NCBI GenBank assembly: GCA_947247005.1
Contig: OX365946.1
Coordinates: forward strand, 47,456,734-47,520,733
Length of the DNA stretch: 64,000 bases
Origin: Spisula solida
Lineage: Eukaryota; Mollusca; Bivalvia; Venerida; Mactridae
Direction of reading: 5' to 3'
Shown here piece by piece: positions 6,101 to 62,738 of the stretch. Both the position numbers and the translations under genes were made by a program. The notes beneath the pieces were generated by a model. That model searched no databases and was not told the origin of the DNA. It worked only from the letters and a program-made list of their open reading frames with translations. Within the stretch, counting starts at the first letter, position 1, and the number at the start of each line of letters is the position of its first letter.

Positions 6101-9100
6101 TTCTACACGTCGTCTTTATTAGTTACACATTTGCCATAAATTTCATGTAATTTGGAACAGGCGTTATAGATTTAGGGAGGGGACGAGATTTTGATCACCG
6201 CTCCGACCATTGCGTATCAACAAAATGCACAACAAGGCTTAGTACTAATAACCAATCATGATTTCCAAGAAATAGTGCTGCCAGTATAAAAATACAAAGG
6301 GCAATAACTCCCTTAAAAATGATCCGACCAACATGCGCCTACAATATGCACAACTAGTCTAGGTATTGGTAAGTTGTGCAGAGTTTACAGAAAAATAGCG
6401 TGGACAAAATTATAAGTCGAAAAAACACAGGGCAATAACTCCCTTAATATTAATCCAACCAAAGTTTGCAGACAATATGCACAACTAGACATGGCTCTGA
6501 CACAAAGTATCGTTGAAATCTGATCTATGGTTATAGAGAAATAGCGAGGACACAATTATAAGTCCAAAAACATAGGGCAAATATCAATCCAACCAAAGTT
6601 TGCCGACAATATGCACAACAAAACTTGGCACTGACACAAAGTATCGTTGAAATCTGATTTATGGTTATAGAGAAATAGCGAGGACAAAATTATAAGTCTA
6701 AAAACATAGGGCAAATATCAATCCAATCAGATTGCAGACAATATGCACAACAAAACTTGGCACTGACGCAAAGTATCGTTGAAATCTGATCTATGGTTAT
6801 AGAGAAATAGCGAGGACAAAATTGTAAGTGTATAAAAACATAGGACACTATCTCGCTTAAAATTAATCTGACTAGGAGCATTGAAGATATGAGCCTTGTC
6901 ACTACTAAGTCCCCTTGTGATGGTGAATAACTATGTTGAGTTTTAAGTGGATACCTTTGATAGTCATTGAGAAATTGACATTTTGTGTCAAACATTTAAG
7001 TCAGAAAAGGGGAATAACTCTTATGAAATGCTTTATAGATTAGTTTCCTCTTGTCAGTAGATGTAGGTCATCACATTCCACAAGTGTGTTGACTTAATGT
7101 TGAAAGGTTTGATAATGTTTGAGAAAATTCAGTTTATGTGTCAATTTCTACTAAGTTGAAACAAGGGCATATAACTCCATAAATATATGTCACACGGTTA
7201 CCAGCCTTGTCAGTATGAACTCCCCTTGTGATGGTGAAGAACTTATAATGTTGACTTTCAAGTGGATACCTTTGAGAAAATGACTCAGACAAAAAACTTA
7301 ACAAATGCACTTGCACACACTTGCCCAACCCAAGGCAGACAACACGATAAAATCTCGACTTTTTTCTTCATAAGTTCAGCTCAAAATGATGTTTATTCGG
7401 GTTTAATGCCAATTCTCAACAATATTTCAGTTATGATATATGGCAGCCGATTCACCTCATCAGTTTTTCTGGACTGTATCCTAACCAGTACTTAATTACC
7501 TTCCACAACAAACTAGCAACTTCTCCACATGCGGACGAGTCCGGGAGGTCAATCAACATTGTAGTCCAATTTTCATGAAAGGACCAGTATGAGCTGTGGA
7601 AATTGGGAATCAAACCTAAAGAAAACTGAAGCTTACCTGGACTGCTGTAGCTATTTCTGCAGAATATCCCATAGTCTGTGGAGCTTCATGAGTTATAATT
7701 AAACGACCAGTTTTTATGACAGACTGAAATTAGATACACAAATACATCTGACTACTTGTCTATTGTTAAGTTTAGCTTTCTATATAGTTTCATTAGCAAA
7801 ACAAGAGGGCCCAAAGGACCCTAGGTCGCTCATCTGTTGTAGCAGTACATGCAAGACCTGTGGGTTGACCTAGTTCTTGGCCCCCATATGACACAATATC
7901 GCACTTGACCTAGATTTTGTTGAGATGATCACTCTGACAAAGTTTCATAAGGATTAGGCTAAACTTGTGACCTCTAGTGACTATACAAGGTTTTTCTATG
8001 ACTTGACCTTGTGACCTAGTTTTTGACCCCAGCTGACCCAATATCAAACTTGACCTAGATGTTGTTGAGATGATCATTGTGACCAAGTTTTGTATAGATT
8101 GGGTCAAAATTGTGACCTGTAGTGACTACACAAGGGTTTTTCTATGATTTGACGTTGTGACTTAGTTTTTGACCCTAGATGACCCAATATCAAACTTGAC
8201 CTAGATGTTGTTAAGATGATCATTGTGACCAAGTTTTGTAAAGATTGGCTGAAAATTGTGACCTGTAGTGACTACACAAGGTTTTTCTATGATTTGACAT
8301 TGTGACCTAGATTTTGACCCCGGATGACCCAATATCGAACTTGACCTAGATTTTGTTGTGATGATCATTGTGACCAAGTTTCATAATGATTAGGCCAAAA
8401 TTGTCACCTCTAGTGTCTACACAAGCAAATTGTTGACGGACGGACAACGGACGAAGAGTGATCACAAAAGCTCACTCTGTCACTTTGTGACAGGCGAGTT
8501 AAAAAGTGACAAATCTGCACAAGGTGTATTAACAAGAGCATGACCAACAAGTGCTGGGTGCTAGACTTTCTCGGTCTTGACAGTACCCTTGCTCATCTGT
8601 GAGTGAAAATTGTAAGAGTAACAAGGGCAGATAACAAAGGGTTACCAGCCTTGTCAGTACAGACTCCCCTTGTGATGGTGAATAGACTTTGAGAAATTTA
8701 CGTTTTTCGGGAAAAAATTAAGTCAGAAAAAGGGAATAACTTCTGCATAGATTTGTTTTTCTCTTGTCAGGTGTAGATATAGATCATCACATTCCACAAG
8801 TGTGTTGACTTTCAAGTTGAAAGCTTTGATAGTGTTTGAGAACATTCAGATTATGTGTAATTTGCCACTATTTCTATGTAAGTTGAAACAAAGGCAGATA
8901 ACTCCATAAATATAGGCCACAGAGTTACCGGCCTTGTCAGTATGGACTCCCCTTGTGATGGTGAATAACTATGTTGAGTTTCAAGTGGAAACTGTGATTG
9001 TCTTTAAGAAAATGACTTAGACAAGAGGGCCCAAAGGGCCCTAGGTCGCTCACCTGTCGAACTTGACCTAGATTTTGTTGAGATGGTCATTGTGACCAAG

Positions 9101-12100
9101 TTTTATACAGATTAGGCCGATATTGTGACCTCTAGTGACTACACAAGGTTTTTATATGATTGACCTAATGACCTACTTTTTTTACCCAAGATGACCCAAT
9201 ATCGAACTTGACCTAGATTTTGTTGAGATGATCATTGTGACCAAGTTTCTTAAAGATCAAGCCAAAACTGTGACCTCTAGTGACTACACAAGGTTTTTCT
9301 ATTATTTGACCTTGTGACCTAGTTTTTTACCCCTGATCACCCAATATCAAACTTGACCTAGATTTTGTTGTTATGATCATTGTAAACAAGTTTCGTAACG
9401 ATCAGGTCAAAACTGTGACCTCTAGTGACTACCCAAGGTTTTTCTATGATTTGACCTTGTGACCTAGTTATTTTCCCCAGATGACCCAATATCGAACTTG
9501 ACCTACATTTTGTTGTGTTGATCATTGTGACCAAGTTTCGTAAAGATTATGCTAAAACTGTGACCTCTAGTGACTACACAAGGTTTTTCTATGATTTGAC
9601 CTTGTGACCTAGTTTTAGACCCCGGATGACCCAATATCAAACCTGACCTAGATTTTGTTGAGATGATCATTGTGACCAAGTTTCATAAAGATTAGGCCAA
9701 AATTGTGACCTCTAGTGACTACACAAGGTTTTTCTATGATTTGACCTTGTGACCTAGTTTTTGACCCCGGATGACCCAATATCGAACTTGACCTAGATTT
9801 TGTTGAGATGATCATTGTGACCAAGTTTCATAAAGATTAATTCAAAATTTTGACCTCTAGTGACTACACAAGGTTTTTCTATGATTTAACCTTGTGACCT
9901 AGTTTTTGACCCCGGATGACCCAATATCGAACTTGACCTAGATTTCGTTAGGAGGATCATTGTGACCAAGTTTCATAAATATCAAGTCAAATTTGTGACC
10001 TCTAATGACTACACAAGGTTTTTCTATAACTTGACCTAGTGACCTAGTTTTTGAACCCAGATGACCCAATATCGAACTTGGCCTAGATTTTGTTGGAATG
10101 ATCATTGTGACCAAGTTTCATAAGGATTAGGCTAAAATTGTGACCTCTAGTGTCTACACAAGCCAATTGTTGACGGATGGATGGACGGACGACGGACGAA
10201 GAGTGATCACAAAAGCTCACTCTGTCACTTTGAGACAGGTGAGCTAACAAAAACGTAACCAACGAACAAGCCCACACAGACGATCCGATCACGACAATAG
10301 CTCTTCACACAATCATTTATTATCTGTATTATATATAGGATCCGTCATGAGTTGTATTTGGAGATCAACATTTCTTGAAGTCTAAAAAACACAGGTTATT
10401 AAGCAAACCTTTGTTTTCGTGACAAGTTTAAGAAATGTTGATCCCAAAGACAACAAGTGCTGGATTTTTTTATCACATTACCAATACAGTAACCGAGTCA
10501 AAACAACATCAGAAATAACAAATTTAAGCCGACGACGTTACATTTTGGCGCTGATTAGCTGGTGGCGTCACACATTTGTTATCACACATGTTTGAGAACA
10601 TTGTTCTGTCATTTGTTCTCTCATGGAAACTCATGGTATAGTCCGGAGAACTTGACAATATTCTCGACCTTCTATAAGCATAATTTAACAACATTTACAA
10701 CATTTATTACAATATTTACGACACTGGTTGTATGTTTTCATATGCGGGAAGTATTCCATGAAGATGCACAAGATGAAATACCAACACAAATCTAAAGGAC
10801 CGATATTGCACGATTTTCTCACGGAAATTTATATATTCAATGCAAGAACCTTGTAATATATTCATGCATAAAGGTCAGGATTATGTCACATTATCTGTGC
10901 TATATATATGTGATAAATAAATATGCTTACTTGTAAAATGGTATCCAGATCATAAGGTAGTAGTGTTCTAAGATCTATGATTTCACAGGATACATTAAGC
11001 TTCTCCTGTGCCATAGTGGCCACCTCACGTAAAACATGAATCTGTGTTCCATAGCCAACCATGGTTACATCACTTCCTGGAAAATATCAAATATTCTAAT
11101 TTGACGGACGATTAGCCTATATAGACAAAGATCAAACATAGCGTTGTATAATGTCTGATATATAATGAACAAGACTGCGTTCAATAAACGCTTATGCCCC
11201 CTGTGGAAGCCTTGTCCATAAATAAGTCTAAGTCCAAAATTAGGTCAAGGTGAAGGTTAAATTGGAGTTAGGTGATACTGGCGTGTGGAGAGTGTTCATA
11301 CACAATATCCATGCAAGTATGAAAGCTTTGTAGCAAGCCATATTAATACTAGAAAAAACGGTCAATTTGGGTTAACCAGGACGGACGGACGGACGAACGG
11401 ACGGACGGACGAAAGGACGGACAGGTGAATCACTATATGCCTCCCCATCTATCGATAGGGGGGCATAAAAAGACGTCACGTAAACAAGTGAAGTAAACAA
11501 CATACTCTCGCAAAGTAACACTGGCTTAATATATAATTCTGAGTTTAAATCATGTTACAATTGAAATAAAATATTCAAAAGCCGTAGTATACCTTTTTAT
11601 ACAATAGTTTGACGTTCTGACGCTTGTTATTAACCAAACAGGCCTACGGCCTTCGTGTAAAGCCGTATTCTGGTAAAACCAGGTTTCATAGAAATACATA
11701 TAACGGTATAATTGCTTATAAAAATGTATGTAATTATTTAGGCCTTTCGGTCAAGGATAACCCATGAAAGTGCAAGCACTTATTTCCAATGGGGTCCTGT
11801 TTTTTTGCTGAAGGGACAGCGAGTAGAAGAAAGAGTTGTGATACAAGGAATCCAGGTGCGTTACCCTAGCTCGTTCCGAATAGACTCCTTGGTTCTTTAA
11901 CGTGCCCGGTGTATAGCACCGATACATGCGAGACTACCTCTGGGTTTTCAACCAGTTCATCTCTAGTTGGGTGGGAAACAGCGTTTCAGAAATGACCAAG
12001 TGTCCCGGCCGAGATTCGAACCAGGGACCTCTCGATCAGTAGTCAAGTGCGTTATCCACTTGACCACCATGCCACAAAATTGTAACAAATCAACAAATAT

Positions 12101-18100: not shown

Positions 18101-21100
18101 ACCCATATTTGTCATAAATGACCTTGCTTGAATATGGCAATATGATGTGATCCAGGCCTTATAGTCTAGCTGCAGTTACGCTTCTGAGCACAGATATATT
18201 TCTTTAGCACTCACCTTCTAAAACTATTTCAGCCTTCCCTAGAGGTATTGTATAATCACCAACTGGAACTTCCTCTATAGCAGATCTATATAAGATTTTT
18301 GGTTCAAAAAATATACAAGGGTCCTCTTCCCTAATACAGCTAAGTAGAAGCCCCTTTGCTTGGATAGGTCCTCGAGGCATCACAACCTGCAAATAATCAA
18401 GTTTACTAATCAACATGTTTACCTGCATTGTCATGCAAGGACAAATATAAGCTAATTACTGCTATCAGGTGCCCAGCTCAGTACATGAAAGAAGAACAAG
18501 GTGCTTAACACCATGATCATTACAAGAATTGATATATTCCATGGTTTGTACCTTCCACCTCCCACTTTCCAGAAGATGTTTCCACAGACCAAAGCAGCGA
18601 ACTGTTAGGCTGTTAGCATAGGTCAGAAATGACAAAACAATATATTTAGTAGAACCCAAAGAATTAAATATACAACTAAGAAATAAAACTCACAAACCTT
18701 TATTCCAGCAATGTGTGAAAAGAAAGCTTCCGGGCTCTGTGAATGATATAATGCCCCATGTCCGACAGCTCCACAAGGCGTTCTGATGGTCAATCCACCA
18801 CAATCAAACAAATTACCCGTCCTATATCTAAACTTAGCTGCTTCATTTGTTATTTGATCAAATGCAGGAAATATATAGTCAGCAAATTGTATTTCAGCAA
18901 TGGCTGTTGCCCCTGCTACAGAAAGACCAATTCCAAAAGCTACAATTCCTTGTTCACTAAGTGGACTGTTAAACACACGGTCAGCTCCTGCAATGTTAGA
19001 ATAACAGAAACTGGTCAACAGCATACCTGTCAAGGTACACGCATTGGTGGTCAACAGCATACCTGTCAAGGTACACGCATTGGCGGTCAACAACATACCT
19101 GTCAAGGTACACGCATTAGTGGTCAACAGCGAACCTGTCAAGACACACACATTGGTGGTTAACAGCATACCTGTCAAGACACACACATTGGTGGTTAACA
19201 GCATACCTGTCAAGACACACACACATTGGTGGTTAACAGCGTACCTGTCAAGACACACACACATTGGTGGTTAACAGCGTACCTGTCAAGACACACACAT
19301 TGGTGGTTAACAGCGTACCTGTCTAGACACACACATTGGTGGTTAACAGCATACCTGTCAAGACACACGTAATGGTGGTTAACAGCGTACCTGTCAAGAC
19401 ACACACATTGGTGGTTAACAGCATACCTGTCAAGACACACGTAATGGTGGTTAACAGCGTACCTGTCAAGACACACACATTGGTGGTTAACAGCGTACCT
19501 GTCAAGACACACACATTGGTGGTTAACAGCATACCTGTCAAGACACACACACATTGGTGGTTAACAGCGTACCTGTCAAGACACACACATTGGTGGTTAA
19601 CAGCGTACCTGTCAAGACACACACATTGGTGGTTAACAGCATACCTGTCAAGACAAACGTAATGGTGGTTAACAGCAATGTGTACTTTTAAAGCATTTAA
19701 TGACCTATTTATTAATTTAAGCAATACCAAAGTTGCCCAGAAGTTAACAGAGACAGACAGTATGATAAGGTTCTGTAGAGATTGAGGCAAAATGATTACC
19801 TTTAGAGCGTGTTAACATTGTGGATGACAAACGACAGACATCCAACAATCCATACACCTCATTTTGCACACAAATGAGCACTTAATGAACAGGCAACCTA
19901 TCAAATGACTTGCCAAAGAATAGACTCTGCTAGCAAACAATAACCTGAAATACTGACCGTATTTATCCTTCAGACCAATACTACAACGAAATACACCACC
20001 AAACGCAACATCTTCTCCAAACACCACTGGAAAAAAGGATAATTATAATTAATAAAGAATCATTTTAATTTTCCTGGAAACATACTAGTCTATTCTTCCT
20101 CATCTCTGTTACTTGCAATCTCGAAATACAGTACAACCTTTCTATAGCGCCCCTTTTTAGAGCAACAACCTCTCCTCAACCACACCTTCAAAATGTCTAA
20201 CTTGCATGCAAAAATTTGACCAAAATGCTAACAGAACGAAGGACCTACATGCATGCACATGGTGACTCCAGTATTTATGCCTTTCAAACTTAGTTTGCGA
20301 GGGTATAAAATCTATTCATCAAGATCTTCATGTGAGATTATAAAGTTTTCCATTGAAAATTAGAAAAAAAATTACCAAAGGAATTACGCATTACAAATTG
20401 ATTTGCACCTTAAATTATTTCTACTTGCTTGTAATTAATAACTTTTCTGTTTAAAGGATATTGTGTCAATGCGAAATTATAACTGAGAACCCTTCCTTTA
20501 AGTTTTGTATACTGACCATGCACAGAGAGCCTTATTTGGTCAGACTGTACAAATTATGTGGTAGACATTGTTAGAGCCACAGAACTTAGGCATGGAATTG
20601 CGCATTTAATAAGAAACTAATACATGGTTTCAAAATGAACAAGGCAACCAATGGGCCAATTAGCTATACACTACAGACGACAAAGAGAGTTGAAGCGTTC
20701 GAGAAATTCTTGTGACATAGCCTAACGTCAAAATGCTCCATACGGTATTAGGTGGTATCATGTGAGAGGTACAATACCAGTCATTATGGTATTATTGTGG
20801 ACAAACATAAAATGGCCGGGCTAAATTTAGCCATAGTAAATAACCAGTATAACTTATTCGTTTTCTTCAGGTGCAAAAGGTAAACAAGAATGTTTATGTT
20901 CTAGTACTATTTATAGCCCGGCCAATTTATCTTTGTCCGATTATACCACACCTAAAGTTATACTTGTATATAAATGTGTAGATAAATGTTTTTCCTATCA
21001 CTGTAATAATTCATGATAGTGTTCTGCTTTAAAACATACCAGCATCACATAAGCAGTCTGGGTACTTTTTGACTGTACCACGTATTAAATAATTTTGAAG

Positions 21101-27937: not shown

Positions 27938-28129
27938 ATGTTCAATGCTACAAAGCTAGAGCAAGTGAAGACACCTGATTGTCCAGCAGTTAGTGTAGAG
28001 GATACAGCTGTAGCAGTTAAAGGATTAAGCTCGGTGGTCGAGGTGGTTTATAAGTTCTGTGACATTAAGGAGTCTATGGTAGAGGCATGGAAGACTGAAT
28101 TCAGCAAGTACATTCCAGATAGAATTCAG
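27938..28129 (+). CDS. Macro-domain gene, coding exon 1
   Basis: ATG in ATCATGTTC. 64 codons, from MFNATKLEQV to SKYIPDRIQ, ending phase 0 at GTAGTG. Frame and phase agree with exon 2. Confidence 0.8.
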
Positions 28130-31100
28130 GTAGTGTTGAAATATTATTTTTCGAGGGAGTTGAAATTATGTTGATTTCTGTTGTTAACTTGACCATGAAA
28201 TCTAATCCCAACGATTGATCGACCTCACAAATACAGAATAGTGTTTTACCCTTCCATGTTTTGCTCTACACGAAATTACGACCCCCAAAAAAATGGATTT
28301 TTTCAAAATCCACAAAATTTAATACCCACAAATATGTGAATTCACTGCACACTGAAATGTTTTAAAAGTAGTTTAACCAGACCCTGATATAGTTTTAGTA
28401 TTAGCGAAGTCTGGGGACATTATAAATTTTGAAAACTTAGGATCCATCTGGTGCATTCTGGGTATTCATTGGTCCTTCATTTGGTACATTAACACCTGGC
28501 AGGTTTTATTACAAAATCAAGCCTATTATAGTCCCTATTCTATAAATTGTCCAAGTTATAATTGTGCAAATGCTCAATTTCTGAGAACTTTTATGGGGAA
28601 TGGTTTAGTAAGTGCTATTTAACAGAAATAGCACAGCGCTAGAGCAATAGAGCTCCTGTAAATAAAAGTCTGCATATTTTATTCTTATTCACATTTAGAT
28701 ATTATTATTAATGATTTCGATATTGATATGTTAGAAACTTTGCTGTGTATGACATGTGTCTATGTTTACCTAGGCAATAGGAGAGATCATGTTTGTATAA
28801 AGATCCATATTCATATGCAAATCTGCCCACCAGCTACTTATTGGATAATGGCAAGTTTTTATTGTTCATTCATCCAATAGATTGCTGGTGGGCATTTTGC
28901 TTATGAATAGGTGATCTCTCCTATAACTTTTTTTATTACATTGTATATTCTTAATTAGGTGTATTAATATTTTTTCTATGCCGAATTGTTTTAAAAATAT
29001 ATGGTAAATGATGGTTTATTTTCAGGTGTACAAAGGAGACATATTTAAATGTGGACCATCTGCTGATGCCATTGTAAGTCAGTTATACACATGTATACTC
29101 AGTGTAGCAATACCATGTGACCATGGGCTACAGATCCAAGTCGAAATTTGCTTCACTTCGAAAACAAAAATAGCCTTAAGTATTGAATAATGATAACAGA
29201 AGTCATTTTACATGAAAGTGCTGTCACTGTACACAAGCCATAATTCTGTCTTTCCAAATTATCTGCCTCTGTAAAAGTTCTTGTCCGGAACATCTTTCCA
29301 AAAATAAAACTATGTCCATGGGTTGGGCTGAAACGATCAAACTAGTATTTTGGATTACCTGGTAGCTTATCTGAGTACACATTAGGTGCGCTTTTGTAAT
29401 TACCCTTTGCCTTTCGTCATAAACAATAATAGACTGTTAAAATTCTTGGGAGTCATATTTATATTAATCAGTTTTGACCCCTCATTCCTGATGTTATCCA
29501 TCACCACAAGGGTATGAGAGAAGAGCAGACAGTTTCCCTTTTTGCTGAGCGCCCTGCAAGGAAATTACTGGTACCATTTTTATTTCGTCTTTGGTATGAC
29601 ACGGCTTGGATGGAATCTGAGACCTCCTGCAATCGAAGCGAATGCTCATGCTAGGCTATTGAGAAAGCATAATTATGAGTTGATATTGTTATTCTGTTGG
29701 TTTTAGGTTTCACCTGCTAACAGTTTCGGCTTTATGGATGGCGGTATCGACATGGCATACAGCCGACATTTCGGATGGCAGATGTAAGAATTTTTCATAC
29801 TTTATCAAGACAAGGGGAGGGTATATATTTAGAGCCAGCTCTCAAAAATCTTAGATTTCTTTATTATTAATCAGCATTACAATTCATATCAAATGGGGCC
29901 ATAAAATTGTAACATTTTGCATGACATCACATTACCATTAATGTTATTTAAACCAATTGTGAAGACTCAGCGTTGTCGGTTGAGTATATATAAAATTTGG
30001 CAAGCAGTTTTAATAGCAATGGAAGAAAGTTGCAACTGAGAAGCTTCTGAGTGTCCTTAGATTCTATGGAGCTATAAGCCTGTCACTAATTTCTGATATT
30101 ATACATGTACTTAACTATATTTATCATTCCTCAAGGAGCACAACTCTGATTTTGTTTGATTAAGCTGACTCATACTTTTGAGTTTTGTCGTCTTCTGACC
30201 TTAATTCCTGCCAGTATTGCAGATTGCTGGAAAAGATTATTAATAATTATACAGTTATTGTACCCCCATCTTTGATGAGGGGGTATATTGCTTTGCACGT
30301 ATCAGTTGGTAGGTCGGTTGGTAGACAAACTTGTTTCCATTCAATAACTCAACCAGAACGCTTTGCCCTAGGATCCTCGAACTTTACATGTGGTCCAAGA
30401 GCCAGGGCACTTTTATTTACTTTTTTGAGCAGGATAAAATATTTATACCACAAGTAGGAGAAAGAAATGTACTTTTCAGACTGCGCGTCTTAGTTGCCAT
30501 ATCCGGGACAAGGGCCTAAAATCCAAGATGGCTGCCAAGATGGCCACCATTTTTAAAAAAAATGACCATTCAAAATGACTGCTGTTAGTCAATACTTTAA
30601 AATTGTTTAAATATCTTACCTGGCTCTTGGACCAATGGAGGTTGGTCATCAACAGTAGATGATCCCTATTGATTTTGAGGTCTGTAGGTCAAGGCCACTG
30701 TGACCTTTACAATATCTGACTATTGGGCTGCCTTGGGGGGCATATGTGTTTTTCAAACATCACTTGCTAATTATGTGTGTCTGGTTAAGTTGAACATGTG
30801 CATAGCTTATTTGTCAAATGTTGTAGCAACTTGACTATCCATCAATATGATTTCTTATTACCTCCGTTTACTGTACAAACTTCTAATACCTTGCACACCT
30901 TTAAAAGTACAAATGTAACTACCTAAAGTGGTAGTCCTCTGTTCAGTAATTTTTTTTTTAATGCCAAGCATAGCCTTTATTTACCAGTCAGCTTTCCACT
31001 GAAATATGGCAGGCATATGTTATATGTGTGCCTCTACCCGGTTTTGAACCCGGGTCACCAGATTAGACGGCAAGTGCGCTAACCATTGAGCTACGGAGGC

Positions 31101-34100
31101 CACGATATATTCACCCATGTATATATTTTGTTTTGTAAATTGCTTGTTTGGTGTATTTATATATACAAGGGTTGTATGATGAATTTGTGGAGTTTTTCTA
31201 TTATTCTGTAATGTTCTGTATGTTGATCATTTTGAAAATTGTACAAATATTGCCACTAAATGTCTGTAATGGATTAAGAACAACTTATTATTTTAATTTG
31301 GTATATTAATAATGTGTCGTCACAGACCCTCAGATGTAGCCATGGAAACATCTCCAGGAGCACTCCATTATTTTTCACGTAGCCTCGTAGGATCTATAAT
31401 AAGCAATAACCTTTCGATGTTTATCACAGCAGTATCAACTTAGAAATATGCACCTATCCCCAATAATGTCAAGTAAAAGTCTAATAATACACTGAGTGGC
31501 TTTGAAAACGCAACACTAATGAAAATCAAAATAGTCAATGTTCTTTCCATCTACATTCGCTACAATGGTTCATTGAACCATGAAACGGATAAAACGAAAA
31601 ATGTAAAATGAATTGATTGGATGATGCAATTATTTTTTATGTAAGGTCAATTTGAATAGTCAATCGATCGACAATTTCGAAAAACACAAAATAAGACGAT
31701 TTACCAATGTGCAATATAGTGGTTGTGAAGTTCCAAAAACACTTGATAGCAATGTTTCAGGGTTACCGAAAAATACTACCAATTTTACAGTCAAGGGGAA
31801 GTAATGCTGGATAGAGATAGAATGAATAAAATCAAATCTTTCTAAATCTAAATTGAACTTTGTATTTATCTGTGTTTTACTTCGTTCTTTTCTGTCTCCA
31901 TGATATGCACAGACACTTGTTCACGAACTGTAAAAGAAGAATAAGTACACATCGGCATCAACAATCTGAAAAACGCCGAAGGACACATGGCATCAAATTT
32001 ACTTTTGTTTATGACATTATTGTTTTATTGTGGTGGTATAGGGTTTTGTCAGATTGTCATGGTCATAAAATTGATTGTTATGCCGTATATCTTAGATAAA
32101 ATGCTGAAAATTTCAGCAAAATTCAATGCATATTGTCAGAGTTATGGGTAAATACATACATGCATACATATAAGCTATAATATAAGTGTAAGTTTTGCGT
32201 TTTCAAAGCCGCTCAGTGTAGGACTTAGTTACTAAATTGTTCATTTAATAAGATACTAATGCAATACATGTCTGCGTATAAGTATTTAGAAATGAATAAG
32301 GTTCCTGATAGGTCTTTTTGCTTTTCACAGAAAAGAAAAAGCAAAACAGAAATTTGAACTTCCAATAAGTTTAATATCAAAATGCTCCATACATTATTTG
32401 GTGAAATCATTTTGAGATGTTGAATATCTGTCATGACGGAACTGATACACCTAAAGTTGTTTACAAAATGTACATGTATTACTAAGTACCGTATTCCCTT
32501 AAATAAAAGCCCCCGGTGGCGAGGCAATTTTCAAAAGGGGGGTATTTATTTGAGGACCTTTTTCAAAAACATTTTTTTTTGATAAAAGGTCTTACTATGT
32601 ACTATAATTTTAAGTGAATCATGTTTGCATATGATTATTCATAGAATAAACCACCAATCAATACATATAAATTGAAGTCTTAAAAATAGTAGGGGGGCAT
32701 TTATTAGGAGGTGGAATGTTTATTCGAGGTATATTTTCGATCACTGAAAGACAATTATGGTTGTGATGTGCTTCTAAACATGCCCAGATAGAACAAGTAA
32801 TTAATAATTGCAAGCAATACAGAAGTCCCCTACCAGTTTGAAGCCATTTTCAATGTTTCTATTGCCATAGCAACCACAATTTTTGTCAGAATCAAAATAT
32901 ATGTTGACGTGCATAATCCCGTTATTGCCCCTTATCCACATATCAAGTTTCTTAAACCTAGCTTGGAAACTGTTTGAGTTATGGCAGGATCCAGATTTGG
33001 GCATATTTTCATTATTTCTGTCTCCATAGCAACCACAGTATTTGTCAGAATCAAAATATTTTTAGACGTGCAAAATCCCCTTATTGCCCCCTAGCCACAT
33101 ACCAAGTTTCAAAAACCGGTAGGGGACTAATAAGCAGTCCTTGAACTTTTTGACTGTCCCTCGTATTTACTATTATATGAACTCTTCTTGTAGGCAGGAA
33201 AGATTACAGAGTGTGATTAGGCAGGATTATGATGGAGAACTTCTAGTGGTAAGTTTTACATATATTACAGTAATAACAATCTATAGGCCTGCATAATGTC
33301 ACATTATTTTGTTAGTGTTGCATTTTTTTCTATGGATCTGTCCGGTTAGCAGTTGAGGGTAATTTTCGAGCAAAAACTATGACCTTTTGCACAAAAGTAT
33401 TAAGTTGCATTGATAGAACACATTTTTCAGCTTAAGTGCCAAAGATAGGATAATAACAGTTGATTTTAACTAGGCCTATGTGTTAACAAATTTTTACTTG
33501 CGCTCTTAGTCACATGTATTAATTACTAAACCATATGTAACTAAGCCATCATACTTCACAGGGCCAAGCTGCGATTATTACAACTGTTGAAAAACACAAT
33601 GCTAACACTGTTGAGTGGTCGAAATACAATGAGGGGAAACCAATAAAGTATCTGATATCTGCTCCAACGATGAGAGTTCCTATGGATGTCTCAGGCACAA
33701 GCAACGCGTATGTGGCATTTAGAGGCATTATTCTTGCTGGTATGTCATTGGCTTCAACAGATATACTCTCATTGTCTGGCACCTGGATAGCTTGATGATT
33801 CAAACAAATTTTCTGTCTCATGGTCATTTCAGAATTTATTAGCCTCAGCTGTAAAGTCCAGTGGTTAGTATGCAGGATTTGTAACCTTTTTGGCAATCTG
33901 GGTTTAATTCCTGGTCACTGCAAGTCATACGCTTCCATGAAAATTTGACAAGTTTCTTGTGGAAGGGTAAGTAATGTTAGTACTGGTTAGGTTAAAGTCC
34001 AGGGAAACGTTATAGGTGAATCAGCAGCAGCTTTATATACTGAAATTCTCTGACTAGCTGGCAGCTCATCTACCAACCACCACAACAGTTGAGTTCTAAC

Positions 34101-37100
34101 ATACCTTTCGCTGAGATTCCAACCTTCAATCTCTTTCTTCAACCCTATAATTATGTTGCAAATAAACAATAGAAATGTCACTTAATCACATTTTATAACT
34201 GTTATAAACTTCAAACCGCCTTATGCACTGAAGAGTGTGAAGAGGACTAAATAAAAAAAAACACAACTTCAAATCTATAATTATGTTGCAAATGAATTAT
34301 TGAAATGTCACTATCGCATTTTATTAATGTTACAAACTTGATATACTGTTTCATTGTGTTAATACTCATACAATACTGTAATTGTCCAAAAAACATATAC
34401 AAAGTCATGTAGATCTACATGTATTTAATTTATTCATTTCAGTGAGAAAGTTCAATGCAGCGAATCCAGAGACACCTATTCGATCAGTGTTATGTCCTGG
34501 TCTTGGTACAGCTGTTGGTTTGATGCCTGCTGACAGATGTGCCTTTCAGGTGACACATATATTTCAACAGGAATAAAAAGGAATAATGCCCACGATTTAT
34601 CGCACTTCCAAAACAAAACATGGTTTTAGGTTTTTCTAGCTCCTGAGTTTAATATTAATTTTGTATAATTAAATGGTATGAATATACCCGGTATATACCG
34701 GTAATACTAGAATAGTAGTAGTACCCCTTCCATGTTTTGTAATCCACAAATTAACGACCCCACGAAAATGGATTTGACTTTACAGTAATATAAATACATG
34801 CTCAATTTACTGTCACTATTGTTGTGGTCACCCTATCATGAAGTGATGGGATGGGCTATTGTGATCATCCTTCATCTGTCGTCTGTCCATCATTTGCTTG
34901 AGTTGTCACTAAAGGTCAAGATTTTGGCCTAATCTTTTTAGCTCACCTGTCACAAAGTGACAGAGTGAGCTTTTGTGATCACTCTTCGTCCGTCGTCCGT
35001 CGTCCGTCCGTCGTCCGTCCGTCGTCCGTCCGTCAACAATTGGCTTGTGTAGACACTAGAGGTCACAATTTTAGCCTAATCTTTATGAAACTTGGTCACA
35101 ATGATCATCTCGACAAAATCTAGGTCAAGTTCGATATTGGGTCATCCGGGGTCAAAAACTAGGTCACTAGGTCAAATCATAGAAAAACCTTGTGTAGTCA
35201 CTAGAGGTCACAATTTTGACTTAATCTTTATGAAACTTGGTCACAACGATCATCTCGACAAAATCTAGGTCAAGTTCGATATTGGGTCATCCGGGGTCAA
35301 AAACTAGGTCACAAGGTCAAATCATAGAAAAACCTTGTGTAGTCACTAGAGGTCACAATTTTGACTTAATCTTTATGAAACTTGGTCACAATGATCATCT
35401 CAACAAAATCTAGGCCAAGTTTGATATGGGGTCATCTTGGGTCAAAAACTAGGTCACTAGGTCAAATCATAGAAAAACCTTGTGTAGTCACTAGAGGTCA
35501 CAATTTTGACTCAATCTTTATGAAACTTGGTCACAATGGTCATCTCAACAAAATCTAGGTCAAGTTTGATATTGGGTCATCTGGGGTCAAAAACTAGGTC
35601 ACAATGTCAAATAATAGAAAAACTTTGTGTAGTCACTAGACGTCACAATATTGGCCTAATCTGTATGAAACTTGGTCACAATGATCATCTTAACAATATC
35701 TAGGTCAAGTTTGATATTGGGTCATCTTGGGTCAAAAACTAGGTCACATGGTTAAATCATAGAAAAACCTTGTGTAGTCACTAGAGGTCACAATGTCGAC
35801 CTTATCTTTATGAAACTTGGTCACAATGATCATCTCAACAAAATCTAGGCCAAGTTTGATATTGGTTTATCTGGGGTCAAAAACTAGGTCATTAAGTCAA
35901 ATCATATAAAAACCTTGTGTAGTCTCTAGAGGTCAAAATATTGGCCTTATCTGTATGAAACTTGGTCACAATGATCATCTCTACAAAATCTAGGTCAAGT
36001 TCGACAGGTGAGCGACCTAGGGCCCTTTGGGCCCTCTTGTTTAAACTTGTTCACAATGATCATCTTAACCTGGGTCCTTGTCTTAACAATATATAGGTCA
36101 AGTTTGATGTTGAGTCATCTGGGATCAAAAACGAGGTTACTGGGTCAACTAATACAAAAGCCTTGTGTTACAGTGTAGTCACTAGAGTTCACAATTTTGT
36201 CAATCAGTAATGTTAATGAAACTTGGTCACAATGATTGTCTCAACAAAGTCTTGCCAAGTTGAATTTTTGATCATCTCGGCCAAAAACTAGGTCACTAGG
36301 TCAAATCCTTGTGAAAAAACTTTTGTTTGCTTAAGAAGCTGTATTTTTCAGTGGATCTTTATGAAAGTTTGTCAGAATGTTCGTTATCAAAGTTGATTTA
36401 GAACATGGGTCATATGGGGTCAACAACTAGGTCACTAGGTCAAATCATAGAAAAAACTTGTGTATGCTATGGACGCTGTAGTTTTCATTGGATCTTCGTG
36501 AATTCGAAAGTTGGTCAGAATGTTTGCATCTGAATGGAATCTAGGTCAAGCTCCAATATGGGTTATTTGTTTGTCTCTATAAAATCTAGGTCAAGTTTGA
36601 ATCTGTCAATATGAAATATAGGTCAAGTTTGAAACTGGGTCATCTGGGGTCAAAAACTAAGTCACAATGTAAAATCTCTGAACAAGCTTGTGAACACACT
36701 AGAGGACACAAGTATGACCCAATCTTCATGATTTTCGTCAGCATGTTTGTATCTATAAAATCTAGGTCAAGTTCAAAACTGGGTCATGTGGGGTCAAAAC
36801 TAGGTCACTAGGTCAAATCTTAGAAAAAGTTTGTCAACACATTAGAGGACACGCTTAGGACCCAATCTTCAAGAAACTTGGTCAAACTGTTTGCCTCAAT
36901 GAAATCTAGGTCAAGTTTGAAACTGGGTTATATGGGGTCAAAAACTAGGTCACAAAGTCAAATCATAACAGAGCTTGCAATAAAGACTGAATTTTCCTGA
37001 ATCTTATTCATTAAATATAAATTATCACTTAGGTCGCCATAGGGGCTTGCATGCACATCTATGACAGGTGAGTGAGCTAGGGCCAAGTGCCCTCTTGTTA

Positions 37101-40100
37101 TTTGGATCCGACCAGTGTTTGTGAAGTTGTAGGCCTTGAAATGATTAAATTTGATGTTATTTTGCTTGTGTTGTCCGTAATTTGAAAACTTATTGTATTA
37201 CAGTCATCAAATTTCATAGGAATGTTAGTCTGCATGTGTTGTTATGCATCTATATATTTTATTCTGATCCAACAAATATAAGCTAAGATGTGGCCGTTGA
37301 AATGAGGAAATTTGATAAATTTTGCATGTGTCACTCATAACTCTAAAACAATTTGAACTACAGTTTTTGAAAATGTCCTATGGACACATTTCTTGTTAAA
37401 TTTCATATTTTGTCAGAAAGCATTTGTTTCTGTCATTTTTCATGGGTCATAGCAGATGTCAACAGGGCCAAATTAAAAATCCTGAATATCGTATGCAGCC
37501 AAACAAAAGGTCTTCAATGACATTGTTTCCATGATTTACTCAGTTTGTATTAAATAAAATCCTTCAGAGCAAATTTAATTTACCAAAACTTTGCCATTTC
37601 CATGATTTACTCAGTTTGTATTAAATAAGATCCTTCAGAGCAAATTTAATTTACCAGAACTTTGCCATTTCCATGATTTACTCAGTTTGTATTAAATAAG
37701 ATCCTTCAGAGCAAATTTATTTTACCAAAACTTTGCCATTTCCATGATTTACTCAGTTTGTATTAAATAAGATCCTTCAGAGAAAATTTAATTTACCAAA
37801 ACTTTGCCATTTCCATGATTTACTCAGTTTGTTTAAATAAGATCCTTCAGAGAAAATTTAATTTACCATAACTTTGCCATTTCTTGTGATATTTTCACAA
37901 AAAAACTTTTTTTTGGTCAGCAGATCATAGCTCTTTTAGAATAGTTAAATCAGGAATTCCTGATAAATCAGTAATTTTGTCTTCCCAAATTGCATTGCAT
38001 GGTCAAGTATCTAATAAACAATAGTAGAGCAGTTAGCGTGGTGGCCACCAAAAATGAAGAATGAAATTCCCCGTTGATTCATAGATTTTTTCCTTACCGA
38101 AAGGTTATTTTCCATGACTGTCTTCGGTGTTCGCAACTCAGAAACAGCTGAAAATATGGCCTCCAACATCCCCTTATACCTTCACCACCAAACTTGTTCT
38201 TATACCTATCTTATAATAAATACATGTTGCTAACAAGTCTGCTTTAGAAATATATCTATTTAATATATTCATAAAGAGAATATACCAGTACACATTTTTC
38301 TATCAAATTTTAGTAAAATTCCCTGAGTTTAGCATTTTCCTTGTTTATGCTGAGTTTGTGACCACCCTGACATTCATTCTTAACGTTAACAGTAGAAAAA
38401 ACTGTTAACACACACTAACACAGTAGTTCATAAAAAATAGTGACTTTGCAAGCTGTCATACAAACAAGTTTGAGGTGTCAGGTCACTTATATTGCTGTAC
38501 TTTTAGATACTGCTTGCCTTTGAAACATTTGAACTGGGAATAGCAGACATGCATCCATTCAATGACTAATATCACTGTACTGTTAGATGTTGCTTGCCTT
38601 TGAAACATTTGAACTGAGAATAGCAGACATGCATCCATTCAATGACTAATATTGCTGTACTTTTAGATACTGCTTGCCTTTGAAACATTTGAACTGGGAA
38701 TAGCAGACATGCATCCATTCAATGACTAATATTGCTGTACTTTTAGATGTTGCTTGCCTATGAAACATTTGAACTGGGAATAGCAGACATGCATCCATTC
38801 AATGACTAGTATTGCTGTACTTTTAGATGTTGCTTGCCTTTGAAACATTTGAACTGAGAATAGCAGACATGCATCCATTCAATGACTAATATTGCTGTAC
38901 TTTTAGAGGCTGCTTGCCTTTGAAACATTTGAACTGAGAATAGCAGACATGCATCCATTCAATGACTAATATTGCTGTACTTTTAGAGGCTGCTTGCCTT
39001 TGAAACATTTGAACTGAGAATAGCAGACATGCATCCATTCAATGACTAATATTGCTGTACTTTTAGAGGCTGCTTGCCTTTGAAACATTTGAACTGGGAA
39101 TAGCAGACATGCGTCCATTCAATGACTAATATTGCTGTACTTTTAGATACTGCTTGCCTTTGAAACATTTGAACTGGGAATAGCAGACATGCGTCCATTC
39201 AATGACTAATATTGCTGTACTTTTAGATACTGCTTGCCTTTGAAACATTTGAACTGGGAATAGCAGACATGCATCCATTCAATGACTAATATTGCTGTAC
39301 TTTTAGATACTGCTTGCCTTTGAAACATTTGAACTGGGAATAGCAGACATGCATCCATTCAATGACTAATATTGCTGTACTTTTAGATACTGCTTGCCTT
39401 TGAAACATTTGAACTGGGAATAGCAGACATGCATCCATTCAATGACTAATATTGCTGTACTTTTAGATACTGCTTGCCTTTGAAACATTTGAACTGGGAA
39501 TAGCAGACATGCATCCATTCAATGACTAATATTGCTGTACTTTTAGATACTGCTTGCCTTTGAAACATTTGAACTTGGAATAGCAGACATGCATCCATTC
39601 AATGACTAATATTGCTGTACTTTTAGATACTGCTTGCCTTTGAAACATTTGAACTGGGAATAGCAGACATGCATCCATTCAATGACTGATATTGCTGTAC
39701 TTTTAGGTGTTGCTTGCCTTTGAAACATTTGAACTGGGAATAGCAGACATGCATCCATTCAATGACTAATATTGCTGTACTTTTAGGTGTTGCTTGCCTT
39801 TGAAACATTTGAACTGGGAATAGCAGACATGCATCCATTCAATGACTAATATTGCTGTACTTTTAGATACTGCTTGCCTTTGAAACATTTGAACTGGGAA
39901 TAGCAGACATGCATCCATTCAATGACTAATATTGCTGTACTTTTAGGTGTTGCTTGCCTTTGAAACATTTGAACTGGGAATAGCAGACATGCATCCATTC
40001 AATGACTAATATTGCTGTACTTTTAGATACTGCTTGCCTTTGAAACATTTGAACTGGGAATAGCAGACATGCATCCATTCAATGACTGATATTGCTGTAC

Positions 40101-41920
40101 TTTTAGGTGTTGCTTGCCTTTGAAACATTTGAACTGGGAATAGCAGACATGCATCCATTCAATGACTGATATTGCTGTACTTTTAGGTGTTGCTTGCCTT
40201 TGAAACATTTGAACTGGGAATAGCAGACATGCATCCATTCAATGACTAATATTGCTGTACTTTTAGATGTTGCTTGCCTATGAAACATTTGAACTGGGAA
40301 TAGAGAAAGACATACTTCATCCTGATAATCTAATGATACCAATGCTACACAGCTGTGCTATGACCGAAGTATGTATTAAATCATCACACTTGTTTTATAT
40401 ACACTTATGTAATACTGTAAAATAATTATTTATTGAGGGAGTTGAATTTTCGTGGATTTTATTGTTGCACTCGACCACGAAATCTAATCCCAACGATTAA
40501 TCGACCTCTCAAATGTCGAACATGTGTTCATCCTATTATGTTTTGTGAATCACAAATTTATGACCCAACAAAAATGCATTTTTATTTAAATCCATGAAAT
40601 TTAATACCCACCAAAATATGTGATTTTACAATAACCTCTCTAGAGCAACACTCGTTGGGAAACATACAGTTTGGTTGACATACATTGGTTGTTGTTCTGG
40701 AGAGGTAAAGTGTATAGTTAATTAGTTACACCTAGAACTCAAATGGCTGCTCTGGAGAGGTTGCACTTTATACATATATAGGTTATTATAGAGGGCTGAT
40801 GGGCATTAAGTTGATATTGGCACACTAGGTTAAAACCCTCGGGTCGCAGCTGAAGTTGTCTCCCTTGTTTAGCAATACCTCGAAAAATTGTGTTGACTTC
40901 ACAGGTACGGGTGCACCAATTCAAAAATGACCAGATATAGTCTTGTTACAGATTTTTGGAAAATGTATAAAAAAACAAATACTGCATAGCTGGTTATTTC
41001 TACAGGGTGTAAATTTCTGCCACGCTGTGGTCCAAGATCAATTTGCAGACTTAAATCTATGTAGAATTAAATCATCTATATAAAATTCTCATGTAGAATA
41101 ATACTAGTTTATAATCTCCAGTCGCCATTTGAGAAGAAATGAAAAATACGCGATAAAAACAGATTGGCGAAATTTATGTCGTAAAATTTCCATTTTACTG
41201 GTCTCATCAAGGGTATTATGTAGAGAGGTTCACAAGATGACTTGTTTATTGCATTGTATTGTTTATTGCGGGTCTGTCGATTGTAACCATGGTAGTACGA
41301 ATGAAGTGTATATTTTTTAAGTAAAAACAGGAAAGAGCATATAATATTTTTATTACCCCCCACAAAGTTTGAAGGGAGTAGCCTTGACAGAAGTCACTAA
41401 AGAAGGAGAATTTTAGCATCTCAGGGGTTTTACTGAGGCATAATGCCAAATCTTTAAAATGAGTTGCAAGTCTGTTTCGGGTGCCATTAGCGCACAGCCC
41501 GTTTCAAACATTGTTATATTGTTAAAATTCCAATCATGGAACTTCAAATGACTATAACTTTGAGAATTCTATGAAGTTTTGTTTCATCAAATAACTTTTA
41601 TTTTGTGCAGAAAAGATAATTCTTTCTCATGCAGCAAATCCGGATTATTCCGGAATTGTAGGACCCTACATGTATACACTGGCAATCATCATCATTGACA
41701 CATGTTAACTTATACTATTCATACTTGAATATTTCAGTACAAAATAAACGAGGAAAATGACAGTCTCCTGAAGTTTAAGAAAGTTGTGAAAGCATCCAGC
41801 ACTGATAAGACTTCTGTCAAGGAGGCAAGGCAAATGGGAAAGGATAAGAATAAGAAAACCGCGCCCGAATCTGAAAAGGATTTACAAGGATCAGCTACAG
41901 CTAGTGAAGATCAAGCTTAG
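27938..41920 (+). CDS. Macro-domain-like protein (8 coding exons)
   Basis: Coding exons are 27938-28129, 29026-29073, 29707-29783, 33194-33248, 33562-33739, 34443-34549, 40267-40368 and 41738-41920. They join in frame to 313 residues with GT-AG introns. Residues 65-106 read VYKGDIFKCGPSADAI, then VSPANSFGFMDGGIDMAYS. This is the macro-domain signature: a beta strand, the ANS Asn, and a Gly-rich GG(I/V)D loop that binds ADP-ribose. Residues near 200-230 (CPGLGTAVGLMPADRCAFQM) correspond to the second phosphate loop (GxGT/G) and C-terminal helix. About 64 residues precede the domain. The last 60 form a Lys/Glu/Ser-rich, probably disordered tail. Macro domains bind or hydrolyse ADP-ribose derivatives; the substrate here cannot be told. 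The sequence looks closer to a subset of stand-alone macro proteins than to vertebrate MACROD or PARP macro domains (from memory, not searched). An AATAAA at 42345-42350 may be its polyadenylation signal. Confidence 0.85.
28134..28355. repeat. CGTGGATTT-type MITE-like repeat, copy 2
   Basis: GAGGGAGTTGAA, AAATCTAATCCCAACGATTG, TCGACCTC and AAATTTAATACCCACAAATA are all shared in order with 40418-40625. The repeat begins within a few bases of the exon 1 donor. Confidence 0.75.
28790..28921. mobile_element. Small palindromic MITE, 132 bp, TA flanks
   Basis: GGAGAGATCA and, further in, ATTCATATGCAAA and TGCCCACCAGC..CTTATTGGAT are inverted in the right half (CCAATAG, GCTGGTGGGCA, TTATGAAT, TGATCTCTCC). 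TA occurs at 28788-28789 and 28922-28923. The whole element can fold into a hairpin. Confidence 0.8.
29026..29073 (+). CDS. Macro-domain gene, exon 2
   Basis: 48 nt, phase 0. Acceptor TTTATTTTCAG and donor GTAAGT. Encodes VYKGDIFKCGPSADAI, the first strand of the macro domain. Confidence 0.88.
29707..29783 (+). CDS. Macro-domain gene, exon 3 (ADP-ribose loop)
   Basis: Acceptor TTGGTTTTAG and donor GTAAGA. Encodes VSPANSFGFMDGGIDMAYS then RHFGWQ, the diagnostic macro-domain loop. Confidence 0.92.
30255..30760 (+). repeat. Interspersed repeat with CCCCCATC/GATGAGGGGG hairpin head
   Basis: It starts GTACCCCCATCTTTGATGAG and continues with GGTAGGTCGGTTGGTAG and TGTGGTCCAAGAGCCAGG. It ends in AGGTCAAGGCCACTGTGACC and GGGGGGCATATGTG. 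The hairpin head and GGGGGGCATA-type end follow the same style as the other ACAAGA families. Short open frames inside are not gene-like. Confidence 0.6.
31030..31100 (-). mobile_element. tRNA-like (Arg-type) sequence, probable SINE head or tRNA pseudogene
   Basis: On the minus strand GCCTCCGTAGCTCAATGGTT is followed by AGCGC and by GGGTTCAAAACCC (B box with T-loop). GTCTAAT lies at the anticodon-loop position. The total length of 71 nt is tRNA-like. The T-arm pairs well, but the acceptor stem has mismatches and the anticodon stem does not pair, so a functional tRNA is unlikely. Confidence 0.6.
31490..32218. mobile_element. TIR element with 24-bp ends, 729 bp, TA flanks
   Basis: The ends CACTGAGTGGCTTTGAAAAC then GCAA and the inverse GCGTTTTCAAAGCCGCTCAG match at 23 of 24 positions. 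TA flanks are at 31488-31489 and 32219-32220. A short internal open stretch (31860-32099) shows no recognisable transposase motif. It is probably a non-autonomous Tc1/mariner-type element. Confidence 0.88.
32487..32720. repeat. Interspersed repeat, CCGTATTCCCTTAAATAAAA type
   Basis: CCGTATTCCCTTAAATAAAA then GCCCCC is followed by GGGGGGTATTTATTTGAGG and, at the far side, AGGGGGGCATTTATTAGGAG with TTTATTCGAGGTA. These look like the two ends of a degraded element with C/G-rich termini. Confidence 0.45.
32806..33131 (+). mobile_element. AGTCCCCTACCGGTTT element, copy 2
   Basis: It shares AATTGCAAGCAATACAGAAG and AGTCCCCTACC at the left, CCGGTAGGGGACTAATAA at the right, and the CATAGCAACCACA core units with copy 1 at 14708. 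The ACGG-like tract is missing. It lies just upstream of macro-gene exon 4. Confidence 0.8.
33194..33248 (+). CDS. Macro-domain gene, exon 4
   Basis: Acceptor CTTCTTGTAG and donor GTAAGT. It completes a Met codon, then encodes QERLQSVIRQDYDGELLV. Confidence 0.88.
33562..33739 (+). CDS. Macro-domain gene, exon 5
   Basis: Acceptor ATACTTCACAG and donor GTATGT. Encodes GQAAIITTVEKHN through KYLISAPTMRVPMDVS to AFRGIILA, then one base of Val. This is the central strand-helix part of the macro domain. Confidence 0.9.
33850..34041 (+). mobile_element. tRNA-derived SINE-like element, copy 3
   Basis: The head CCAGTGGTTAGTATGCAGG (A box) and GGGTTTAATTCCTGG (B box) is followed by CCATGAAAATTTGACAAG, GTGGAAGGGTAAGTAATG and TAGTACTGGTTAGG. 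This is the inverse of the bodies at 3826 and 7432. Confidence 0.75.
34443..34549 (+). CDS. Macro-domain gene, exon 6
   Basis: Acceptor TTCATTTCAG and donor GTGACA. Encodes RKFNAANPETPIRSVLCPG and LGTAVGLMPADRCAFQ, the second ligand-binding loop. It ends phase 0, and the next intron is 5.7 kb. Confidence 0.92.
34715..34795. repeat. CGTGGATTT-type MITE-like repeat, partial copy 3
   Basis: CCCCTTCCATGTTTTGTAAT then CCACAAATTAACGACCCCAC and a TTTACAGTA end match the right halves of the copies at 28134 and 40418. Confidence 0.6.
34938..36044 (-). mobile_element. Helentron/pearl-like element with 145-bp core tandems, copy C
   Basis: Inverted relative to copies A and B. It begins with the tail (AGCTCACCTGTCACAAAGTG, then ACAGAGTGAGC), then the GTCCGTCGTCCGTCC microsatellite, about seven core units, and ends in the head AGGGCCCTTTGGGCCCTCTTGT. 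It is well preserved, so it is a fairly young copy. It lies in the intron before macro-gene exon 7. Confidence 0.85.
36045..37102 (-). mobile_element. Second, diverged Helentron/pearl-like element abutting copy C
   Basis: Core motifs (TCTAGGTCAAGTTTGA, GGGGTCAAAAACTAGGTCAC, TAGAGGACAC) continue with more divergence, to an end ATGACAGGTGAGTGAGCTAG then GGCCAAGTGCCCTCTTGTTA. That is a second head, so this is a separate older element or a head-to-tail compound. Confidence 0.7.
37103..37400 (-). repeat. Degraded ACAAGAAATGTGTCCATAGG-type repeat
   Basis: It ends at AATGTCCTATGGACACATTT then CTTGTTA, the inverse of the head seen at 5592. The body holds TTGATCCAACAAAT-type and AGTTTTTGAAAATG segments with no coding potential. 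Confidence 0.5.
37453..37985. mobile_element. Expanded copy of the CAGGGGTGTCAA element
   Basis: GTCAACAGGGCCAAATTAAA and AATCCTGAATATCGTATGCA at the left, and TTTGCCATTTCTTG, GATATTTTCA and GGAATTCCTGATAAATCAG at the right, match the 267-bp element at 52992-53258. Its centre has become a five-copy 71-bp tandem. Confidence 0.75.
37530..37884. repeat. Tandem repeat, 5 x 71 bp
   Basis: CATGATTTACTCAGTTTGTA starts at 37530, 37601, 37672, 37743 and 37814. The period is 71 bp apart from a single-base deletion in the last unit. Units differ by few substitutions. The array lies inside the expanded CAGGGGTGTCAA element. Confidence 0.95.
38489..40303 (+). repeat. 80-bp tandem array: 23 copies of the exon 7 splice-acceptor region
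   Basis: TGCTTGCC occurs at 38511 and every 80 bp to 40271, giving 23 copies in 1760 bp with no indel. Each unit holds AATGACTAATATTGCTGTAC, then TTTTAG, then about 60 nt resembling the start of macro-gene exon 7 (codons xLLAFETFELGI, then ADMHPFND) and a stop. All 23 keep the AG; copy 2 reads TGTTAG. The last copy, at 40267, runs into the exon that continues the gene. Units differ mainly in the first four bases after AG (ATAC, ATGT, GTGT, AGGC). Reading frames on the opposite strand are by-products. Confidence 0.97.
40267..40368 (+). CDS. Macro-domain gene, exon 7 (last copy of the 80-bp array)
   Basis: Acceptor GCTGTACTTTTAG and donor GTATGT, phase 0 at both ends. Encodes MLLAYETFELGIEKDILHPD and then NLMIPMLHSCAMTE. 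The first 36 nt match the array units. This copy is the only one that continues into a full-length exon with a donor. Confidence 0.88.
40418..40625. repeat. CGTGGATTT-type MITE-like repeat, copy 4
   Basis: It shares ATTGAGGGAGTTGAA, CGTGGATTTTATTG, ACCACGAAATCTAATCCCAA, CGATTAATCGACCTC and AATTTAATACCCACC with the copy at 28134. A TTTACAATA end is present at the right and ACTGTAAAATA at the left. Confidence 0.75.
40628..40760. repeat. Small inverted-repeat element, ACCTCTC ends
   Basis: AACCTCTCTAGAGCAACA and, 70 bp on, GTTGTTCTGGAGAGGT are inverted. A second GCTCTGGAGAGGTTGC follows at 40750. It resembles the sequence near 20130. No coding sequence is present. Confidence 0.55.
41460..41675. 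repeat. GGAATTGTAGGACCC repeat, copy 1
   Basis: GGGTGCCATTAGCGC, TCATCAAATAACTTTTATTT, AGCAAATCCGGATTATTCCG and GAATTGTAGGACCC occur in order. The 45575-45728 and 46335-46490 segments share these blocks. It lies in the last macro-gene intron. Confidence 0.65.
41738..41920 (+). CDS. Macro-domain gene, exon 8 and stop
   Basis: Acceptor GAATATTTCAG. 60 codons from YKINEENDSLLKFKKVV to ATASEDQA, then TAG. Rich in Lys, Glu and Ser and probably disordered. It includes KDKNKK, a possible basic nuclear-localisation-like patch. Confidence 0.8.
   Translation, partial: YKINEENDSLLKFKKVVKASSTDKTSVKEARQMGKDKNKKTAPESEKDLQGSATASEDQA

Positions 41921-49834: not shown

Positions 49835-62738
<12,904 letters not shown>

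Follow-up and report, generated by a model that had tools for sequence, protein, structure and literature searches.

A boundary-spanning minisatellite with 23 acceptors in a macro-domain gene of the clam Spisula solida

Introduction

A stretch of 64,000 nucleotides of the clam Spisula solida (C3:47456734-47520733, assembly xbSpiSoli1.1), hereafter the window, contains a macro-domain gene in which the acceptor of exon 7 and the start of this exon occur 23 times in tandem. What is such an array, and which of its acceptors would the gene use? The original prediction, which was made from the letters of the sequence, considered a splicing-regulatory array, a source of alternative 3' ends and a very recent minisatellite in which a splice site had been captured. 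Here we present a description of the array and its gene, together with a survey of similar arrays in the genome. The array is probably a mirage, that is, a boundary-spanning minisatellite which is close to neutral and of which the last acceptor is mostly used (probability about 0.78).

Structure of the array

The array was delimited by Tandem Repeats Finder (TRF) with a period of 80, 22.7 copies, 97% matches and 0% indels (Table 1). The 23 acceptor AGs end at 38506+80k (k=0..22), all 22 spacings being 80 bp. Each unit spans the exon-intron boundary, with 43 nt of intron followed by 37 nt of exon. AG is present in every copy and is part of TTTTAG in 22 of the 23, copy 2 having TGTTAG. The branch-like sequence TGACTAAT is exact in 18/23 copies; TGACTGAT occurs in three copies, TGACTAGT in one and TCACTTAT in copy 1. 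The predicted 23 tandem copies of 80 bp without indel, each with a branch-like sequence and TTTTAG, are thus borne out, as is the copy of the exon start in each unit, for which the predicted length of 36 nt has to be corrected to 37 nt. Chance is ruled out as the source of the array by the length of the run and its exact register.

Copies 2-23 vary in 13 of the 80 columns, including exon-like positions +1 to +4, with a mean pairwise difference of 3/80 nt. Copy 4 and the genuine copy 23 are identical across all 80 nt, and the intron part (-43..-1) is identical to that of copy 23 in 14 of the 22 upstream copies. Adjacent copies are more similar than remote ones (r=0.32; 7/5000 permutations as high), as expected under local duplication by slippage or unequal exchange. 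Copy 1 has only about 22 nt of intron in common with the other units, and the flank further left differs.

In a search of the whole assembly (931,988,947 bases in 36 contigs; counts are lower bounds) the unit gave 23 matches, all at the array locus, and none elsewhere. An array of transposon or introner origin was rejected, as the unit matches at a single locus in 932 Mb in this search, whose counts are lower bounds.

The macro-domain gene and its exon 7

Eight coding exons with canonical AG/GT borders on the plus strand (27938-41920) join into one frame of 313 amino acids, in which two Pfam macro domains, PF14519 and PF01661, were identified. The Pfam matches end at residues 217 and 222, and the exon 6/7 junction is at residue 219/220. 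Only copy 23 runs on into the rest of exon 7. Among the best 120 of 7,332 homologues (E below 0.001), those at the top come chiefly from molluscs, along with proteins of brachiopods, nemerteans and other animals; the closest of the 120 is from Mactra antiquata (66% identity over 92%). In 18 of 20 homologues chosen from the 120 and aligned, the exon-7 part continues; of the exceptions, P0010 ends where this part starts and P0022 (Mya arenaria) shortly after. Met220, Ala223, Pro238 and Leu241 of exon 7 are nearly invariant in this alignment. The authentic boundary and the reading frame are therefore kept, since the 313-residue frame passes through copy 23 and is conserved in the homologues. This upholds two further parts of the prediction, namely that the last copy is the genuine exon and that 22 acceptors, each in a complete acceptor-like unit, precede it in an intron of 5.7 kb.

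The gene is apparently single-copy, as judged from a protein search of the genome in which no close second copy was detected and the six matches all fell within this gene. Of the 15 other exon ends of the gene, the donor of exon 1 recurs once in the window and the remaining 14 do not recur there. Intron 6 also holds a separate array of 71 bp x 5.1 (TRF) at 37526-37883, which precedes the splice-site array by about 600 bp.

Table 1. Features of the macro-domain gene and its array (positions in the window)
Feature	Position	Strand
Coding exon 1	27938..28129	+
Coding exon 2	29026..29073	+
Coding exon 3	29707..29783	+
Coding exon 4	33194..33248	+
Coding exon 5	33562..33739	+
Coding exon 6; macro matches end near its 3' junction	34443..34549	+
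Intron 6, 5,717 bp, holds the array; donor CAG/GTGACA	34550..40266	+
Tandem array, 23 copies x 80 bp; unit of 43 nt intron end and 37 nt exon-7 start	38485..40303	+
22 decoy acceptor/exon-start copies; first exon-like base 38507+80k, k=0-21	38507..40223	+
Genuine exon 7, 102 nt, phase 0-0; last acceptor AG ends at 40266	40267..40368	+
Coding exon 8, last, contains the stop codon; relative to its junction the decoy stops are premature	41738..41920	+

Predicted consequence of decoy use

Behind each of the 22 upstream acceptors the reading frame is closed by a stop that ends 63 nt in, the first at 38567-38569, and these stops fall 119-1799 nt before the last exon junction. From exon 6 into a decoy the frame reads [Ile/Met/Arg/Val]LLA[F/Y]ETFEL[G/R]IADM[H/R]PFND, 20 codons, and then stops. 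The stop codon in copies 2-23 is TAA in 18, TGA in three and TAG in one. A premature stop well before the last junction leads to nonsense-mediated decay (NMD), a rule known from vertebrates. Transcripts that use any of the decoys should accordingly be NMD substrates, a prediction in which the stops are computed and the decay is inferred. At the position of the near-invariant Met codon the 22 upstream copies have ATA (11), GTG (5), ATG (3) and AGG (3); with the codon kept in only 3/22, the copies are therefore not apparently maintained as coding sequence. Judged by their sequence, the upstream copies are decoys and not alternative coding exons. The suggested source of alternative coding 3' ends thus becomes unlikely, every decoy giving the 20-codon ending, a stop and predicted NMD. 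Selection on the common stop codon was considered and rejected, as two A-to-G events that retain a stop are likely enough by chance (reasoned, not computed).

Splice-site arrays elsewhere in the genome

Exons of other genes were sampled by protein domain. The sample comprised all 19 matches of ABC_tran, each with flanks of 1.5 kb, and 57 of 63 matches of ABC_membrane, each with flanks of 350 nt. Frames of about 1,550 amino acids contain six of the ABC_tran matches; the six ABC_membrane matches in frames of this length were left out. Long splice-site arrays are present in 4 of these 76 loci (19+57), which are not independent, some being from the same genes, and differ in flank length; the donors of L064, found via L026, are not counted. 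The layout is thus not unique to the macro-domain gene in this genome. Among 56 matches of Cpn60/CCT, no splice-site array was seen in 30 loci (TRF and self-comparison) and 12 further stretches (TRF only).

At the ABC_tran locus L026 the acceptor and exon start are repeated. Joined with the neighbouring L064 it has 61 acceptors at 41- and 29-bp spacing, 58 with TAG and three with AAG, the last being genuine. In L064 (219-1378) the intron starts with 29 donor-type units, mostly of 39 bp, made of 33 nt of exon end and GTAAGT, which is exact in 26 and replaced by GCAAGT, GTACGT and GTAAGA once each. We take the two arrays to lie on one intron, from the continuity of the ABC protein as judged by a motif. 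L022 (934-1326) has five donors exactly 81 bp apart, each an exon end with GTAAAT, on the exon preceding the matched one. Of the ABC_membrane loci, L110 carries eight acceptors at a spacing of 48 bp and L112 six donor units at a spacing of 64 bp, of which one lacks GT; both arrays are cut by the edge of the locus. Two-copy acceptor duplications were found in L082 and L128, and in L085 an exon end with the donor GTAGGT occurs twice on the gene strand, about 160 bp apart.

With the phase taken from the protein frame of the exon, a stop follows at 48 nt after each of the seven decoy acceptors visible in L110, and within 15-126 nt after each of the 60 in L026/L064. The donor arrays of L064 (39-nt units, 411 codons without stop) and L022 (81-nt units) are open in the exon frame, and use of a later donor would therefore insert repeats in frame; in the donor array of L112 (64-nt units) the exon frame runs into a stop.

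Five further candidates for edge arrays from TRF (L079, L088, L095, L108 and L119) were rejected when read, as they are intronic with a unit that has no exon sequence. The intronic arrays at L095 684-1024, L108 576-919 and L119 1-337, without exon sequence, start 14-20 nt past a donor. Self-matches were seen in L087, L098 and L114.

Origin and role of the array

The reading of the array as a near-neutral mirage agrees with the suggestion that a minisatellite captured a splice site, which is the best of the three original readings; the units, with complete acceptor-like sequence, lie before the genuine exon. The exact 80-bp register, the lack of a match elsewhere and the recurrence of arrays of the same kind in the genome are all consistent with it. 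So are the greater likeness of adjacent copies, the conservation of the genuine exon 7 beside the lost Met codon of most upstream copies, the stop behind every decoy and the similar anatomy of lancelet mirages. A founding tandem duplication would have fallen across the intron-exon boundary, followed by expansion through slippage or unequal exchange. The duplicated founder probably measured about 59 nt, from -22 to +37 relative to the acceptor, and gave the 80-bp unit together with a filler of 21 nt, because copy 1 shares only its short intron part with the other units. In the mature mRNA the last acceptor would mostly be chosen, since copy 23 alone adjoins the remainder of exon 7 with its donor, and exon definition would be the basis of this choice. 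Occasional use of a decoy would lengthen exon 7 by 80n nt and bring in an in-frame stop, followed by NMD, and the array as a whole is probably close to neutral.

Three points weigh against this reading. The use of the last acceptor is itself inferred. Branch-like, pyrimidine and AG motifs are intact in most decoys, which a regulatory role also predicts, although with copies about 97% identical this is uninformative. The source of the filler was not found in the exon-7 continuation (local P=0.73, anchored P=0.086), the left flank (P=1.0) or elsewhere in the window (longest exact match of 11 nt), with a query of the 21 nt and, in one test, 11 further nt of the unit.

If the decoys served regulation, the 22 copies would act as a splicing rheostat that diverts transcripts to a premature-stop isoform, with copy number tuning the output of the macro-domain protein. 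The identical place of the stop in 22/22 decoys, always at the distance before the last junction given above, the restriction of stop-codon changes to TAA to TGA or TAG, and the identity of 14 decoys with the real acceptor over -43..-1 would all fit. The common stop is, however, already explained by the founding copy, under neutrality it has a fair chance of surviving two transition events (again reasoned, not computed), and the comparable ABC-gene arrays differ in unit, length and consequence, so that a rheostat appears unlikely. Still less probable is a stable protein of 239 amino acids (219 + 20 residues) with an alternative C-terminus. Such a product would keep the macro domain largely intact, given where the Pfam matches end, and lose the tail, but with it the conserved end of exon 7, where Pro238 and Leu241 are nearly invariant; its first codon varies (Ile, Met, Arg, Val), and NMD is expected. 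False tandem copies or a wrong copy number in the assembly can hardly be credited. Tandem arrays are error-prone, but the copies bear distinct, interspersed variants. HiFi reads are normally longer than 1.8 kb, and single reads should span the 1.8-kb array. According to its publication, the assembly was made from 31-fold HiFi data with a quality value (QV) of 62.8, which also speaks against an artefact.

For the arrays of the genome as a whole, random capture followed by tolerance is the default view. It is doubtful that exon edges are instead hot spots of minisatellite birth through a process linked to splicing or transcription. Near the 57 ABC_membrane exons, 6/12 arrays (three or more copies with a period of 15 or more) cross a splice site or end at most 20 nt away, which gives a binomial probability of 8e-4 for an assumed p=40/370, with edges read by eye and the threshold set after looking; one ABC intron is arrayed at both ends. 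Spanning arrays with exon sequence, on the other hand, number 2/12, no more than random seeding would give (units of about 50 bp, P=0.50), the sample is a small one drawn from a single gene family, and none was seen in the CCT set. This test used manually entered counts (6 and 2 of 12), 3/12 distances are empty, and those of L111 and L124 were measured from the match edge. Tentatively, and with a probability well below one half, splice-site mirages may be pervasive in the clam, at a few per cent of exons and at acceptors as well as donors, with as many as 61 acceptors and 29 donor units on a single intron. They would then be a large and rapidly mutating reservoir of competing, near-identical sites, differing in copy number from one individual to another, that tunes unproductive splicing and may seed introns or in-frame repeats.

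Other arrays in the window

A 36-bp array of 18 units (19012-19677) lies just before an exon of a minus-strand gene with Pfam transketolase domains, which we take to be BCKDHB-like. Each unit has TTAAC or TTGAC as its branch-like sequence, and an acceptor directly abutting a donor, CAG/GT, resembling a recursive splice site, and the last CAG/GT is 39 nt before the first base of the exon (18987). As a second mirage in the window this array was rejected, its unit not being similar to the exon edge (P=0.43). Nine of ten minus-strand exon cores were found, with 15 further matches for the BCKDHB-like one next to the 36-bp array, one for an RBBP4-like one and none for seven. A satellite-like family of 145 bp occurs at 7866-8425, 9057-10162, 35044-36001, 57250-57678 and 58973-59493, and also near the ABC exon in L026.

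Comparison with known systems

In amphioxus, mirages are tandem duplications of exon-intron boundaries, found in Adh3, TnC, the globins BflGb6 and BflGb9, and PGBD5 (PMC3087553, PMC3902484). BflGb6 has the 3' end of an intron and the 5' part of the exon repeated with the authentic boundary retained, with six units in one haplotype and three in the other, each of 150-160 bp; splice signals occur in many units of lancelet mirages, evolution is concerted within a cluster, and reverse transcription PCR suggested that regular splicing is undisturbed (PMC3087553, PMC3902484). BflGb6 and its like share the layout for which the original prediction knew of no described case. The clam unit likewise spans the boundary and bears splice signals, with the authentic boundary and frame kept and the copies locally homogenised. 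Unlike BflGb6, the clam array has 23 units of 80 bp, and unlike the lancelet mirages it has a mollusc as host, in a genome that also holds 61 acceptors in 41- and 29-bp units. Lancelet mirages were observed to differ in length and were studied at the mRNA level, whereas the clam array is known from genome sequence. The literature searches showed no mirage from a mollusc, a weak indication that none has been published.

In humans, a minisatellite that contains several splice donors was reportedly described in 1995, in the gene IFI6 (6-16). There too a tandem repeat multiplies splice sites in a gene, but the clam array multiplies acceptors, and in a mollusc instead of a mammal. A donor-site minisatellite of this type was rejected here, as the unit straddles the exon-7 acceptor and the exon-7 donor has 0 other copies in the window. 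Poison exons and alternative splicing coupled to NMD are known with one or a few conserved, regulated sites. Use of an alternative acceptor would likewise introduce a premature stop in the clam gene, 119-1799 nt ahead of the last junction for 22/22 decoys; unlike the known cases, the gene has 22 tandem predicted decoys. NAGNAG and other close tandem acceptors are a few nucleotides apart in one branch-point context. They also compete in tandem, and were rejected as a model for the clam array, in which the spacing is 80 nt and each unit has a branch-like site of its own.

The value of the array lies in its phylogenetic reach, its high copy number and its recurrence in kind within one genome. With copy 4 equal to the genuine copy over 80 nt, the effect of position is isolated, a site transcribed first against the site nearest the donor, and several arrays in one genome are natural tests of how the spliceosome chooses among near-identical sites. 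Gene annotation in such genomes may be misled by the copies. The array extends mirages from lancelets to a mollusc and offers raw material for the proposed route from mirage to new intron. The kind is already known from lancelets; what is new is the mollusc host and the recurrence within one genome.
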